DNA of 64,000 nt. Origin: Siphonodentalium dalli (Eukaryota; Mollusca; Scaphopoda; Gadilida; Siphonodentaliidae). A model generated the notes under the pieces. It saw only the letters and a list, made by a program, of their open reading frames with translations, did not search any database and was not told the origin of the DNA. The DNA is taken from the NCBI GenBank assembly GCA_032622095.1, contig CP136067.1, forward strand, positions 94,852,707 to 94,916,706, written 5' to 3'. The translations under genes and the position numbers were made by a program. Shown here piece after piece: positions 6,816 through 47,336 of this stretch; position 1 is the first letter of the stretch, and each line of letters starts with the position of its first letter.

Positions 6816-7165
6816 TAAATTTTATCATCGAAAAAAATTCATTTCTTTCACCTAAAACATAATTATGTGCTGTATCCTATCATTTTAGGAATATATACGT
6901 ATCCCACTCAGACACACCAAGTCTCAGCTTAAAATTTTGAAAAATAAGAGATTTATCAACATAAATCGATTTGTATGGCAGATCCCATGTTAAATTTTAT
7001 CATCGAAAAAAATTCATTTCTTCCACCTAAAACATAATTATGTGCTGTATCCTATCATTTTAGGAATATATACGTATCCCACTCAGACACACCAAGTCTG
7101 AGCTTAAAATTTTGAAAAATAAGAGATTTATCAACATAAATCGATTTGTATGGCAGATCCCATGT
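6816..7165. repeat. exact-looking 175-bp tandem duplication
   Basis: The unit starting TAAATTTTATCATCG at 6816 starts again at 6991, a period of 175 bp. The copies differ at only a few positions (CTTTCACC versus CTTCCACC; GTCTCAGC versus GTCTGAGC). The near-identity points to a recent duplication. Confidence 0.85.
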
Positions 7166-7239
7166 TAAATAAATTTTAGGGCCCTTCAAATGTTTTCTGA
7201 GATGTTCCATATTGGCACCAGAGTCCATATTTGACTGGT

Positions 7240-8110
7240 TCTACATGATAATTGTGCAACAGTACAGTCGCGTTACTTTATACGTCAAAATTGGTCATTA
7301 TCACTCGACAAATTTATTTCGGTCTATCGTATCAACCCCTATTTCCCCCGCGTAGCCTGACTAAGTGTCAACCTTGGTCTTTATCGCTCCACTAATTTGT
7401 ATCATTTCATCGGTATGAATTCCATATCCAATTATCCACATATAACCAACCCAATCTCTAATCCCAGTCCAATTTATTAATTTTTTTCATCGATATAGTC
7501 ACGTTACGAAATATTTTATTGCGTGATACTTGTACTTATATGTCTATGGTATTACTATAGTATACCGTATACGTATATCAATTGCTATTCCTTTCTATAT
7601 AATTCTGGTGTCATCTATAGAGATACAGATAATTTCTGACACCCCCCCCCTAATTTTATATCATTGCTGCTTTAGTACATTCGCGATGCATTACATGGCA
7701 ACATCGCTCCACTAATTTATGTCAGTTCATCGGTACGAACCCCTTTTTCTCCGAGTCCATATAACCAACCCAACATCTTATCCCGGCTTAAATTATTATT
7801 TTTATTTTCATCGGTATAGTTGTGTTACATACATATTTTTATCATTTGATTCTAATTTGTATTGTACCACTATAGAAGTCCATAAATGACTATTCTGGCA
7901 CTATATAGAGATGACTAATATTCTGACACCCCCCCCCCCCCTATTTTATAACCTTGTTGCAACAGTAGAGTTGAGATGCATAATATGTCAACATTGGTCG
8001 TTATCGCTCTACATATGTATATCGGTTCAACCCTTAGTTCCCTGTAATGCCCACCCCCCCTCAATTTATTTTTTCATTTGTATTATAGTCTCGTTACGTA
8101 CACATTTTTC
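7240..8110. repeat. imperfect repeats of ~290 bp with poly-C tracts
   Basis: Three related blocks begin near 7240, 7680 and 7970. Each has a phrase like TCGCTC(C/T)AC followed by TCGGTNNNAACCC, and a preceding CTGACACCCCCCCC tract (7638-7651 and 7925-7941). They look like decayed tandem copies of one interspersed repeat, with no coding potential. Confidence 0.55.
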
Positions 8111-39620: not shown

Positions 39621-39843
39621 TGTAGCATCTTTTGGTCGCCATCTGACGCCGGTGACTTTGACACAGATGTCAAAGGTCACGAACGAATGGCCCGACACTT
39701 GAAACTGACCGATCGAACTATAGAGACGTACAATGAAGGGAGCAAACGCTGATAAAAGGACTTGCCGGCCAAATGATACGGATCCAACTCAATGTAAGTA
39801 GATCTAGCACATGGCGGGCAAGAGTTGTGGTAACGACACCACA
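39621..39843 (+). repeat. right LTR (223 bp)
   Basis: Second LTR copy. It is followed by the target duplication ACAG (39844-39847) and then 23 bp of LINE-B ORF1 before the next insertion. Confidence 0.9.
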
Positions 39844-39865
39844 ACAGGCACCAGGTGAGCGAGTA

Positions 39866-39870
39866 GTTAT
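39866..39870. repeat. target-site duplication GTTAT, left copy
   Basis: GTTAT at 39866-39870 and again at 47332-47336, immediately outside the terminal inverted repeats. Removing the element and one copy restores the LINE-B ORF1 frame across the site, which independently supports these boundaries. Confidence 0.9.
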
Positions 39871-40132
39871 CAGGTCTGGCAAATGTGAGAATACAGCTAC
39901 AATAGCTGTATTCAGCTAACCTAGCTGTATTCAGCTATATATTATACTCTCAAAGCGGCTGTTTTTCGATAATAAACTAGAAGCGCTAATTTGCGCATCG
40001 AAATTAGGCTACCATATTTTCCGGCCACCCTAAACCAAATCAAAACCGTCACTTGTTTTCTGACAAAGTGTTGCATTTTCTCGACACGGCGATGCTGATT
40101 TTGGGTGAAAACTTACTACGGCGGTCGATGTC
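39871..40132 (+). repeat. left terminal inverted repeat (262 bp)
   Basis: Identical by eye to the reverse complement of 47070-47331; divergence begins after CGGTCGATGTC. The outer 90 bp contain a repeated word around AGCTGTATTCAGCTA, a possible subterminal transposase-binding motif. Confidence 0.92.
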
Positions 40133-40686
40133 GGTCATAACGGTATAAAAACTCTCTTATGCAATGCGGAATACCCTGAAAAGTACATTAAATACAATAT
40201 TTATCACCGAAGATGGAACGTCTGGATCATTTCCGGAAGTATCGATAGGATGCAGCTAAAACGCAGTTTGGTTGGTGCGATGAAACCGGTAAAAAAGGGA
40301 ACATCTCGAGTCAGAGATTAACCGAGCGAGTACCACTCACTGCTTGAGCTGACTTTCCCCAAAAATACGGAAACGCATATCTGTCAATGCAAATCGTGAA
40401 AATACAAATAACAATTTTATATTCACAACGGTGTTTAAAGTGACATTTGTCTTCGTATTTGTTCAATCCGACTGCAAATGCGATTTGTAACTTAGTACGA
40501 ATCTCAGTGCTAATAAAGTGAACTAAATGGTGGGCATGCATGGTTGGAATATCGCTCACATGGGCGTTACTCACGCACCATATTAATCCGATTCAGTTCA
40601 TGGTTTTGGGGTATTTAATGGCACGTTTCCTCTGGATTGTCACACCACAACTTGAACACAAGACACAGAAAAGAATTATTACGACA

Positions 40687-43600
40687 ATGGTATGTTAATT
40701 TTGAACATTGCATGATTTTGTTTATTATTATACTCGACGTTTTAGAACTTCAAAATGTTACCCAGAGTTCAGCTAAAGCATTAAAAAATTTGTAGATAAT
40801 ATATCTATATGTCCGTGTATTTGTTTATTACATGTACATTGTATTATATGTTCGTGTAGATCCATCAATATTTTGATCACTCAATGTTCGCATTCTATAA
40901 TAAGCGGGTATATATATGTACCAGTGCGTCTATATATAACCAGAATCGGATCCTTTAATGGAATATATATATATATATACAAATACAGACCAAAAATCCA
41001 ATGAACTATATATCAACGGCATACGATCCAGGTTATACCACAGTGTCGGAAGTATGTGCAGGTATTAGTACAGCATCATTATCTACATTGTCGGATATTT
41101 CTGAAAATATAACATTTATCATGAGCAATCAAATGTCGTACCCTAAATTAATAAAGAATATTGTCATAAAATAATAATTTCTAGATGAACAATAAACATC
41201 CTGTCTTATATTTCAGTCTAAGCGAAACTATGATGTTCAGATGTTTGACAGTTCCAAGAAACCCAGGAAGACAAACCCAGGAAACAATGTTAAGGGACAA
41301 GAACCCCGAGCCAAACAACAGGCCACTGGTCCCAGGAAAATAGATTACATCGACAATAGCTCGAGGCGGGCACAGTGCCTGAACAAGCGTTTGAAAACTC
41401 TGTTTAAAAACGTAAGTATATACATTCATGCCAATGACCGACATTTAATATAATATGAGCTACCAAGTCATGATGGAATGAAATTGCAAGATGCATACAA
41501 TTTAAGCATAATTTATACAATCATGTAGGTATAACTACATATCCGTAACACGTGATTCATGCATGCTGTGTTTGTGGATAGCACTTAAACTTACCAGTCT
41601 TACTTGAGTCACGGTCAGTAGCAGAGCGTCGCCTCAGTTCATCACATGAATCTTCTATATCCATCAACAATTTTACGAGGACTTCCTTTTTGGCGCGTTT
41701 GGCTGATGTCCATGTTACTATGTACTGTTGGTGGTGGTCGTCTGCGCCACTTGACTTCAACAACTCCATTTTTTCTTTAATGATAAAGTTAATTTCGGCT
41801 TTTGTTTTGCTATGTACACTTTCAGCCCTCGCCCTGTCTTCCTCCGTCACTAATATTTTCTGTATTGTGGCGCCTCTGAAATTACACTGGTCGCGTACAT
41901 GTTTTATGAAAATGTTTCTGTTTTCGACGCACGATCGTTGAATAATAGCAACGTCTCCATCAAGTATAGATGCGGTCACCCCAATGGCATGAACTGGTCG
42001 TGTTATCTACAAAATGAAACATCTTTGACAACAATATACTGACACTACCACCCTGATTAAATGCCTGACATACTATCAAATGAAGACACACCTGTCTGTT
42101 GTTAGGAAGAAATTTGGAATGTTAATCTACTTTAGTGATGCCCACATGTGCGTGGTACACAACATAGATTTGACATAAACGGGACAAAGTTAAAGAAAAT
42201 ATGAACAGGGAGAATAACTTGTGGATATAAAATGATATTAGGGATATATATAGAGAAATACGACACAAAACATAAATCAAAAAATAACTGCCATATGAAT
42301 GTGACAAAGATGGGTTCCAAAATGGCCATCCGATAATTTACATTCTGCTTGAGTCAAGACCATGTTTAAATTTTGGTAAAATTGGGGGAAGTATCTTAGT
42401 TTTACATAAAGGCATGGTAAATGATGTTAACTTGTAACAACATACATGTGAATCGGTGACATAATGTTCACTCCTGAGGATTTGTCGCCAGTGAGATATC
42501 TCTTTGTCGAGATCAGTTTTCCTCAACCCTGTGCGTTGTCCGTCACATCCTTTCCCAGTCTGTTCTTCGAGGTTTTGTCTTATCTGTCAAGTGGAGTATA
42601 ATAAATACATGTATATTCAAGTCGAAATTGCTTTTCAGTTGAATGAAATTTGCACACAAACGGGTATTGAAGCCTATCTTGAAATTAAAACACCAAGTTT
42701 GGCGGGTTACTACTGGGCTACGCCGGAGTTAGGCAGGCAGCATGGAGTCCAGGTCAGTACTTTCGACATTTCTTTATTATATATTTTTTGTCGTGATTTT
42801 CTTGTGAGAAATATTTAAATAGATTAACTGTCACATCTCAATGAAAGTTTCCAATTCAAATATATATACATGTACATACCTGTACATATTCGTTTTGATA
42901 ATATGTCTTTAGAATGGTATCTGTACACGCTGTCGTCTAAACTATCCAGGCATATGTTTGTTCAATAAACGAGATCACTGAGTCGCTAACATATTGGATC
43001 CATCCAGCCGCGTTCCGCGCATCCAGTGCCACACTTCAAAGTTATAGAGTAGCATTCCATATAGTAGCATTCCATATATGGAATGATATTCAAGAACTTT
43101 AAATGGCAGCACTTAAACCGTGGAGTGGATCCAATATATGCGACTCAGTTATTTCGCTTATAAAGGAATGCATGTATATCCTCATATCTACATTCAATAT
43201 GGAAACAAAGAATAAAATTTCATAATGTCATAACTCATAAAGTGTTGTCAACTTGTCATGTTCTGTCAAATAGGTGCAGAACAACTCCATAAATAGAGAG
43301 GAGACGCCGTTGGAGGTTCCTGCAATTCCGGACTTAACAGATTTCAGCCAGCACCTGGAGCAGCCTCCATCGCCAAGTAACATTACCACAATGATCGATG
43401 TCCATACCCAATGGAATGAAAGTGCACTTGCTGGACCAAAAATATGCCGAGAATGCGCTGATTTGTGGCCAACAGAAACCATTGTAGAAGAGAGGTGGCT
43501 TGGGTGTGACCGCAGAACACCGGAAGGGGAGTGCCAATATTGGGTGCACGCTGAATGTGTCGGATTGCCTATGCTGACTGATCCACAAACAGAACAAATA

Positions 43601-44280
43601 GACTTCTTCTGCCCTGCTCATAGGTAAATACAACATGTCTTTATACATTGAGAATATAATGTGCAAAATGTATGAGAGGAGAAAATATTGTTCAACTCAT
43701 TGCAAGTTTTCAAAAACAGTTTAAACTACATTGTCATTTGCACTGCATTGCCTAAAGTATTATTAGGAAATGCTACTCCATATGAATAATCAATTGCAGA
43801 CTGCTGGTGCATATGTATAAAATCATTAAACAATTTTGTTCTATTTTTTTTCATTTACTGGTGTGTGTGTATGTGTGTGTGCATGGGGGGGGGGGGGGGT
43901 GCACGCTGTAAACCCATAACTATTCATCGAATTGGTTCTAATGTAACCATATACTCATTCCAAATACTTAACAATAAGTTTAGAGCCCAATAATATATAA
44001 CGATTTACTGAAAGATGGCTTCCAGAATGGCCGCAAAATGATGCATTATCATTACAATAAAGTGTGTTATTATGTTCTCTCATTTCCAAGAGATCGGGAA
44101 TCATATGAGGCAGTACAGGCAGGAAGACAGGAGAGTCCGCACTTGATTAAAGATACCGTCGTGGTAGCGGCAGGGGGAGATGGCGGGAAAGGACGAGGTG
44201 GTTGCAACGCAACACGAGGTGGTGGTGGTAACAGAGGAAGGGGTCGTCGCGGACGACGACCAACTATCCGAGGGAAATGA
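40687..44280 (+). CDS. MADS-box / PHD-finger / RGG protein of the DNA transposon
   Basis: Five exons, all with GT-AG borders: 40687-40689 (ATG only; 5' UTR upstream), 41217-41411, 42639-42752, 43274-43623, 44091-44280 (TGA). The frame stays open across every junction, giving 283 residues. Residues 41-99 align without gaps to the SRF-type MADS box: KIDYIDN..RR (42-52), KR (58-59), LFKN at the exon junction, then NEI..QTG, YYWATPEL. An intron cuts the box in half. Residues 162-220 form a PHD-like finger: C162, C165, C182, C191, H196, C199, C217, H220, with WVH before the sixth ligand. The tail (about 245-283) is RGG-rich. AATAAA follows at 44283. Exon 4 could instead begin at 43280 in the same frame. 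MADS boxes bind DNA as dimers and PHD fingers read histone tails, so a role in target choice or expression control is plausible but inferred. Exon 1 is the least certain. Confidence 0.75.
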
Positions 44281-46470
44281 TAAATAAATATTCTTCAATA
44301 TAAAATACTTAGTTTATATAACATACCTTATCCAGGTCATCCACGCCGCGACAAACCTCCAGCCACGTTTCCTTTGTCGGGACACCTGGTGGCAGCCAAG
44401 CTTTTATTTTTTTATTTTTGGCTTCCAACACGAAGTCGCCGCCTTCCGCTTTGCTAGAGTGACCAGAAAGTGAGAATGAAATATTCTTTTCTGTGAGAAT
44501 TCGAACATCTTTTGGCATCAATACTCGCAAAAGACTGTATCTAACATATATCTCTCTATAATTTGGTGCATTTGTACAAAAGAATAACAAACACAATTTT
44601 GTTAAGGCCGCGTGTGCTATTGAACTGTTGTTCCTCCTGATACCAGCTCGAAACAGCTTAAATGCAAATAAAAATGTTAATGACATGGTGAACATTGTCT
44701 TCAAATTGGAATTTCGACTATTTTGTATGTAATTATATAGTCCATTTTCCGATATAGTTTCGTTAGACGCAGAACAATATGTGACATAATTATGAAAAAT
44801 TTCATCCTTGGTTCCTTCAAATACAATTTGAAACATTTGCCACGCCTTATGGTGATCGGCACATCTAAGACAGCTGGCGATGGCTTTCGGTGATCTGAAT
44901 CCTAACATGTTAGCAACACGACTCAGAATTATATCCCAATATATTTAAAAAAATGCTTTCACTAGGTTCAGTTCAAAATGGCCAAATCCAGGTAACACAA
45001 ATATGTCCCCATATTTCATGTCAGCAGCTTTAATTTTATAGTTACATATACCATGACTTTCCAACTGGTGCCGTATGAACACTTCCTCTCCAATATAGTT
45101 GTTAGAACATTGTATACAAATGAAAGAAGTGTCAATCAGTCTATGAGCCAGGGTGAATGGCGACCCATCACAACCTAGAATGTTCCATTTCCGACCACTA
45201 GACGCTGATAAATCATGATTCAATTTGTCAAGTATAGTTGTTACCGACTCATAACCATTCGGATTTTCGAAAATGGGCTCACCGACTACAGCTGTGGGCG
45301 GCGAACAAGATTGGCAGCCATCAACAAAAGCATAGTGATCTGATTTATTGTCATTTGTTTGTTTCAAAATAGGATTTGAATCACTGAACTCAACAAATTG
45401 TCCTTTATCGTCTGTGCTCATCAACACCGAATTTTCATGCACAATCTCTTTTAAAACAGAATTAATATACTTAGAGCGTTCTGTGCGAAACACAGCTTCA
45501 TCATTTTCAATAAGGGTCGTTAGCGAATAAAAAAATATTTTGGCGATCTTCTGCTTTAATAAAATTCCAGTGTCGTGGGGATAGATCCTCATTCCACTGA
45601 ATATTAGAAAGAGGTCCAGGAAATAAATGTAAAATGTTTGTTGTGATGCTTATATCTGGCTTAGAATCGTCCTCCACACGCCATCTTTTCCCAATAACCT
45701 GATTATTATCAAAAAATGTAAAGCAATCTCCTTCATCGGGAACGACATTCGGTACATTGCCATTATCACTTATCAATTTCCGAATGCTTGTGTGGGAACT
45801 GGAAGGTCTAAGAGTTCCATTTAGTGCACATATTGTCTTGCTTCCAGTGAGATAGTGAGTTAATAAATTTATTATGAAAGAACAAGGGCCAACATAGTTT
45901 CAAGTGCCTCGCGTGTAACACATGTTCCATTGCCAAGCACAAGGAGTTAATTTTCTTTGTATTATTTTCCGCGTCAGTTATTCCAAGAAGAAATTTAGTC
46001 ATAACCTCATTTTGCGACGTAAACCACACCGAAGTGGAGAAATATTTCAAATAGTCAACATTGTAATTATCAATAATACCGTTCTTTGTCCCATCCAAAA
46101 CTTCATCACATTGACTCCTCCCTAACTCAAATGCTAACATTTGAAGTTCATCGTTTGAAAGCCGACAATCCCTTATAGCACTCAATACTTCCCTGAATGC
46201 AGCATGTTGTACACTTTCATTAGAAGCTTGGTTACACGTCGTCGCATGCTGTGAGTATTCCACACACGCAGTACACAACCATCGAAATCGATCTGGTAAC
46301 AGCCCTTCAGAAATGAGACCCTCAGTTTCCGATTTTTTTTAACTTTTTGTGTTCTCTCCCGTGAATGGTGAACTTTTTGTTACTTGAAAATTCTTCATGT
46401 TTGATGCAAGAACAGTTTCTTGAAGGAGGCATATTTTAGTGCAACAATATTCCTCCACATAAGTTTGATA
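41033..46470 (-). pseudogene. large transposase-like protein (possibly DUF6589-related), broken
   Basis: Reads right to left. The main coding block, 46470 down to 44327, gives VEEYCCTKICLLQ, LLPDRFRWLCTACVEY, FELGRSQCDEV, LCLAMEHVLHARH, GSKTICALNGTLRP, FDNNQVIGKRW, WNILGCDGSPF, VLPGFGHFELNLVKAFF, MLGFRSPKAIASCL, FRAGIRRNN, SGHSSKAEGGDFVLEAKNKK and WLPPGVPTKETWLEVC. A donor at 44326 joins in frame to exon 41595-42006, then exon 41033-41100 ending TAA. I remember many uncharacterised invertebrate proteins with these segments, possibly DUF6589-related; that is recall, not a search. Conserved acidic residues in GCDG, GHFELN and EGGDF could be catalytic (speculative). Breaks: TAA near 46343, a shift near 45862, a shift in a T run near 45540, TAA at 44945-44947. 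The 5' end was not resolved. Confidence 0.65.
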
Positions 46471-47069
46471 TCGAATGGGGAAAAATTCATTGTGACAGTC
46501 CCATTTTTTGTATCAATCAACGAATTAGCCAATCGTGTAGCAATATTTGAGGAACTCATAGGATATTGTGTATGCATGTGGTGAGTTATTATTTCATACC
46601 CTGAAGAATGTTTTGTGTAGTATGCAGATATGATTGGCTGTCATTTGCCCTTACCCAGAAAATCGGATTACACACGAGACACCAAGCATGCTTCAGCATG
46701 AATTGTGTGGAGTATTGGGTACTCGTGTACTATTATTTGTTTTTCCGCCAGAATAGGTCTGACTCGCTATCGACCAGGACTTCATGTTTAAAATACTTCA
46801 AAAATGATATAAGTCGCATTTTCATTTCAGTTGTCTCTCTGCTGTGCCATACATTTGCAATATACCGCACAATATCTGTATATACCGTTATAAATAGTAT
46901 CGCTCACAAACCGCAATTTTAAATGCTTGAGATAGGTACACCATTATAACGCCCCCCTATCGGTTTAACACCGGGAAGAAGGAAACGAATGTTTGCGGTG
47001 AAGTTTATCTTTGTTTTAGAAGTTAGCAAGTTCATGCTTTCGCAGAAAATAGTCCCCAGATTATTGCCT

Positions 47070-47331
47070 GACATCGACCGCCGTAGTAAGTTTTCACCCA
47101 AAATCAGCATCGCCGTGTCGAGAAAATGCAACACTTTGTCAGAAAACAAGTGACGGTTTTGATTTGGTTTAGGGTGGCCGGAAAATATGGTAGCCTAATT
47201 TCGATGCGCAAATTAGCGCTTCTAGTTTATTATCGAAAAACAGCCGCTTTGAGAGTATAATATATAGCTGAATACAGCTAGGTTAGCTGAATACAGCTAT
47301 TGTAGCTGTATTCTCACATTTGCCAGACCTG
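47070..47331 (-). repeat. right terminal inverted repeat (262 bp)
   Basis: Mirror of 39871-40132. The minus-strand open frame 46919-47149 starts inside it and is more likely leader or chance than a separate gene. Confidence 0.92.
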
Positions 47332-47336
47332 GTTAT
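47332..47336. repeat. target-site duplication GTTAT, right copy
   Basis: Second copy of the duplicated target. The following G completes the ATG codon of MAAENSDFDG in LINE-B ORF1, but the original start lies upstream at 33151. Confidence 0.9.

Follow-up and report, generated by a model that had tools for sequence, protein, structure and literature searches.

A probable cut-and-paste DNA transposon of Siphonodentalium dalli with a DUF6589-related transposase and an antisense MADS/PHD gene

Positions 39871..47331 of a 64,000-nucleotide stretch of the genome of the scaphopod Siphonodentalium dalli (GCA_032622095.1, contig CP136067.1, positions 94,852,707 to 94,916,706 of the forward strand; hereafter the window) hold a 7,461-bp element that is very probably a defective cut-and-paste DNA transposon, with a DUF6589-related transposase and an antisense MADS/PHD gene, and that apparently belongs to a superfamily of its own with a distant relationship to P elements. 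The whole copy, itself assigned no strand, runs between the termini CAGGTCTGG and CCAGACCTG. Its perfect terminal inverted repeats (TIRs; 39871..40132, plus strand, and 47070..47331, minus strand) are identical over exactly 262 bases, and a target site duplication (TSD) of GTTAT stands on either side (39866..39870 and 47332..47336, both plus strand), so that the exact ends, TIRs and TSD given in an initial annotation of the window hold. A 10-bp subterminal repeat, AATACAGCTA, occurs in three copies and both orientations at 39889..39932 (no strand assigned); these are putative transposase-binding sites, and the stretch is unchanged in the sister family B described below.

The element sits in a long interspersed nuclear element (LINE). 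Genome searches covered the same assembly (2.23 Gb, 9 contigs), and as an empty-site query the sequences flanking the element were joined through a single GTTAT. Four LINE copies matched this query unbroken across the junction (query 117-274; identity 98-99% in three copies and 92% in the fourth), and a further six LINE copies matched at 80-81% over a shorter span (query ~117-226). Because LINE copies align without a break across the junction, an unoccupied insertion site exists elsewhere. As read by eye, the insertion position is the start codon of the LINE open reading frame 1, ORF1 (GTTATG); ORF1 was therefore severed from its leader without an internal split. The initial annotation was thus right about insertion into a LINE but not about an interruption inside ORF1. 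Past ~34 bp, the left flank (window 39721-39844, bases 1-124 of the joined-flank query) is a different dispersed repeat, and for that reason the LINE apparently lies within or beside an older repeat; this repeat recurs ~6 kb upstream in the window (C7:94886023, window position about 33317).

The first 301 bp of the element matched at least 40 places in the genome (40 scored of 1,743 candidates). From 20 fetched regions (L009-L028) we obtained 19 copies of this family, hereafter family A. Five are near full length (L009, L010, L011, L012 and L013+L014) and 96-98% identical to the window copy. The 14 shorter copies retain, at 82-92% identity, positions 1-553 of the element together with parts of 6881-7461 and, because the same end segments are kept, are regarded as shortened members of the same or a very close family; six of them with both ends measure 1.17-1.22 kb. 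Two ends were recognised in 16 of 20 copies, window copy included, with an exact 5-bp duplication in 13 of the 16 (that of L013/L014 read by eye); the exceptions are L012, which matches over 4 bp, L015, at 4 of 5 bp, and L018, with none, and L019, L020, L025 and L027 were left out of the count for want of a clean second end. By eye, the TSD sequences have no consensus. The initial annotation had proposed collecting further copies to see whether the TIRs and duplications recur, and they do. In L013/L014, ~8 kb of sequence is inserted between part of the right TIR and the remainder of the family-A copy.

On the minus strand, the first transposase exon (44327..46432) encodes a DUF6589-related protein with an N-terminal zinc-binding pattern and D/D/E residues, and a C-terminal exon modelled from splice sites (41595..42006, minus strand) lies inside an intron of the plus-strand gene. 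Candidates for a third, further C-terminal exon were listed by script, none of them convincing. Exon 1 of the window copy is broken by three private single-base length changes and by one in-frame stop, the latter common to three of the five other near-full-length copies; the frame is uninterrupted in L010 and in family B. Relatives of the C-terminal exon were found by tblastn in families B, C and F, with no significant one in family D. We found 39 proteins homologous to the transposase, and all 11 with a named organism come from molluscs (Haliotis, Mizuhopecten, Saccostrea, Argopecten, Mytilus, Ruditapes and Mercenaria), where they are annotated as uncharacterised proteins.

Against the Pfam model DUF6589 (PF20231), the window read-through scored 15.4 bits (E 0.0077), below the cut-off of 27; of the 36 family members, 17 match the model at E ≤ 0.1, the best of them at 4e-13, and the domain is carried by P0001, P0002 and P0004, which are 34-35% identical to the window protein. 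A match of the read-through to Bro-N (Pfam, 16.4 bits, cut-off 25.6) was taken as chance. No named transposase family was found by Pfam among the 36 members (E ≤ 0.1) or by NCBIfam among three relatives, and no relative of P0005 was found among viral contigs. The Pfam entry for DUF6589 states no function, whereas the related genes here sit inside defined transposons.

Several such transposons are present in the same genome, in which a search with the homologue P0001 gave at least 98 matches (65 of 583 candidates scored). Three sister families, B, C and D, were examined at both ends. Family B (L030) is 7,380 bp long, with a TIR of 241 bp and the TSD TTGGA; a second copy in L029, over 99% identical to L030, was seen at one end and left out of the TSD count. 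The two copies of family C (L031 and L032) are 97% identical, with a TIR of about 225 bp and the TSDs TTAAT and GTAAA, and the two of family D have the TSDs ATAAC and GTGAC and a TIR that is 65 bp in one and damaged in the other. All three families start with CAGGTC(T/G)GG, of which CAGGTC is common to A, B, C and D. Paired TIRs with a constant TSD length, the mark of TIR cut-and-paste elements, thus recur throughout, the 5-bp TSD being exact in 13 of 16 two-ended copies of family A and 5 of 5 of families B, C and D. Transposase identity to family A is 63% for B, 35% for C, 34% for D, 32% for E and 35% for F; for E (L037/L038) and F (L033/L034), TIRs were not found within the fetched stretches. 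CAGG termini, 5-bp TSDs and a PHD gene recur jointly in B, C and D, which bears out the association of TIRs and genes that the initial annotation had read from one copy. Recent mobility of family B is suggested by the identity of over 99% between its two copies and by the open transposase frame of L030. At about 6014-7584 of L029, a ~1.56-kb insertion interrupts the family-B copy; its inverted ends are 16 bp long and start TTAACCC, and we presume it to be akin to a piggyBac-type non-autonomous element. The family F regions L033 and L034, from different contigs, are 99.6% identical over nearly their whole 8.9 kb, a likeness that would be explained either by an element that extends further or by a large duplication of recent date.

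An RNase H-like DDE fold, which the initial annotation had suggested looking for in the minus-strand protein, was found in predicted structures of relatives of that protein: P0001 and P0003 model as an RNase H-like fold with conserved D, D and E, its core interrupted by a mostly helical domain. The fruit-fly P element transposase was the top fold match for both, and Hermes, HzTransib and RAG1 were also matched, Transib and RAG1 scoring under P and Hermes. The fold ranking speaks for placing the element within the P superfamily, as a strongly diverged branch with a lost THAP domain and an altered TSD length, a placement that we regard as rather unlikely. With the P superfamily (P element, Galileo, THAP9) the element shares the best fold match and cut-and-paste movement with TIRs, and long TIRs also occur in Galileo (PMC4168063, in excerpt). 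Members of the P superfamily carry a THAP domain, show D(2)H behind the second catalytic D and make TSDs of 7-8 bp (PMC4168063 and PMC10983969, in excerpt). P-type transposases also have a helical, GTP-binding insertion, to which the helical domain predicted here may correspond, and use GTP as cofactor. The family has instead GxxH after the second D (among rows with a letter there, G stands in 32 of 33 and H in 31 of 32), which can be read in favour of a P branch since it stands where P has D(2)H, but its TSD is 5 bp, not 7-8, and no sequence similarity to P was detected. No THAP or P-transposase Pfam family was found in the 36 members at E ≤ 0.1, 20 of which reach the N-terminal zinc pattern (C.C..H); profile searches of PDB sequences did not return P transposase at E ≤ 10; and the fold matches take in Hermes, Transib and RAG1 as well as P. 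The antisense MADS/PHD gene is a further addition relative to P elements. Because the P-type TSD length and THAP domain are absent, we do not file the window element as a P element.

Membership of the CMCT clade (CACTA/Mirage/Chapaev/Transib, including RAG-like transposons) is, in our estimate, improbable. The clade is described as having mostly CA..TG ends, 2-5 bp TSDs and, between the second D and E, the zinc motifs C(2)C and H(3-4)H (PMC12730594, in excerpt); the CA..TG ends and 5-bp TSD of the element agree with this description, and HzTransib and RAG1 are among the fold matches. The zinc motifs, however, are missing in about half of the members: C405, part of a C2H2-like finger, is present in 16 of 36 rows and falls in a gap in the other 20. 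RAG-like transposons (RAG1L/RAG2L, ProtoRAG) have 5-bp TSDs and a convergent RAG2L gene with a PHD finger (PMC7204232, in excerpt), and by analogy they would be the closest parallel for the partner-gene design, in which a transposase gene is opposed by a PHD-finger gene. Unlike theirs, the TIRs in A, B, C and D begin CAGGTC and not with the CAC heptamer start of Transib and RAG-like elements, though the 5-bp TSD is shared; the partner gene encodes a MADS box, its exons given here show no match to kelch in Pfam at E ≤ 1, the two genes are interleaved, and the predicted transposase fold scores higher with P element than with Transib or RAG1.

With regard to hAT elements (Hermes), no hAT dimerisation domain or BED finger was found in the 36 members (Pfam, E ≤ 0.1), and the structural score was below that of P; hAT5 elements reportedly have 5-bp TSDs. 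Within the KDZ group, Zisupton has 8-bp TSDs (PMC12730594, in excerpt). No KDZ, Kolobok or CACTA structure was among the fold matches listed, which is not evidence against those groups. For none of P, hAT, Transib, CACTA or KDZ is simple membership supported.

The plus-strand gene was modelled in four exons: one with an SRF-type MADS box (41217..41411; Pfam PF00319, 29.5 bits, cut-off 26), a second with the end of the MADS region and a conserved linker (42639..42752), a third with a PHD finger (43274..43623; PF00628, 20.0 bits against a cut-off of 24, which it thus falls short of) and a last one with a glycine/arginine-rich basic tail to the stop (44091..44280), whose acceptor was chosen by frame and which is the least certain. 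The MADS box and the PHD finger had not been named in the initial annotation. No first exon is claimed, the sequence having been searched for one by eye alone. By eye, the PHD spacing is Cx2Cx16Cx8Cx4Hx2Cx17Cx2H. Transposase exon 2 falls in the first modelled plus-gene intron, and three plus exons fall in the transposase intron. In family B, the first three plus exons have their acceptor AG and donor GT at the same places, protein identity to A is 68% for the MADS exon, 84% for exon 2 and 52% for the PHD exon, and the MADS box is above cut-off (27.8 bits); this recurrence of exon borders and proteins in a second family supports the antisense, interleaved genes reported in the initial annotation. 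Antisense shadow frames are common near long genes, and the plus exons could on that ground be chance open frames of the transposase gene. We consider this exceedingly improbable: the exons lie in the transposase intron or past its last modelled exon and do not overlie it, and they have a Pfam-significant MADS box, conserved splice borders and a third-position bias.

A captured host MADS/PHD gene, carried as a passenger with no role in transposition, is rather unlikely. In favour of a passenger, one-base deletions break the plus gene in L010 and L012, so that no examined family-A copy has both genes uninterrupted; and of 620 candidates in 5.8 billion sequences no homologue of the plus protein was found at E ≤ 0.001, a search that spliced exons would escape. 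Against a passenger, families A, B, C, F and D all have exons for a PHD finger close to the transposase, and these are antisense in A, B and C, where orientation was checked. PHD scores are above the cut-off of 24 in F (29.7) and D (27.1) and below it in C (23.2) and B (20.7), and the match in family E lacks significance (E 0.25). A MADS exon can be clearly recognised in A, B, C and F (tblastn 2e-8 in C and 1e-12 in F) but is doubtful in D; in Pfam it is below cut-off in F and unseen in C. Judged by its substitutions, moreover, the plus gene is under purifying selection, both among family-A copies and in the comparison of A with B: within A, 35 changes are synonymous and 34 nonsynonymous (two of them stops) against expected weights of 846:2538, 41 of 70 fall at the third position, and between A and B the nonsynonymous-to-synonymous ratio (pN/pS) is 0.24 (200 ungapped codons; the synonymous sites are saturated). 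A scan for SRF/MEF2 consensus sites gave no exact site in the TIR, whereas the rest of the element holds three sites for SRF and two for MEF2.

Under our preferred reading, in which the superfamily is distinct and P elements are its distant relatives, the element probably works like a P element. The transposase would bind the subterminal AATACAGCTA repeats in the TIR and then pair the ends, cleavage at the CAGG termini would be performed by D233/D388/E631 (P0001 numbering), and the 3′ ends would be joined to the target at positions staggered by 5 bp; the short copies of ~1.2 kb may be mobilised in trans. The antisense gene is predicted to yield a MADS-box/PHD protein maintained by selection, which most likely binds DNA and chromatin and serves in transposition as a partner or regulator, by analogy with the RAG2-like protein of RAG-like transposons. 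More tentatively, and with somewhat less than even confidence, DUF6589 may mark an undescribed animal DNA transposon superfamily, a sister lineage of P elements in which a RAG1/RAG2-like two-gene design evolved independently, a DDE transposase being opposed by a PHD and MADS chromatin reader that steers transposition. The initial annotation had inferred an undescribed or poorly described superfamily; the lack of a named transposase family in Pfam and NCBIfam, the DDE fold and the recurring features agree with this, but judged by the fold the element would be related to P elements. DUF6589 is unmentioned in the open-licence PMC papers searched, which also hold no pairing of MADS box, PHD finger, transposase and target site duplication, and the titles and abstract openings listed from them contain no description of such elements.

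If correct, this reading would assign DUF6589, for which Pfam states no function, to the transposases and would account for proteins annotated as uncharacterised in the genomes of oyster, scallop, mussel, clam and abalone. It would also join a P-related fold to a different integration stagger and add, besides RAG-like elements, a second natural case of a transposase with an opposite-strand PHD-bearing partner, which would make the origin of such partners testable. On contig C6 of the assembly (G000), at about 70.0-71.5 Mb, at least seven DUF6589 matches lie within 1.5 Mb on one strand, perhaps a local duplication or a domesticated gene cluster.
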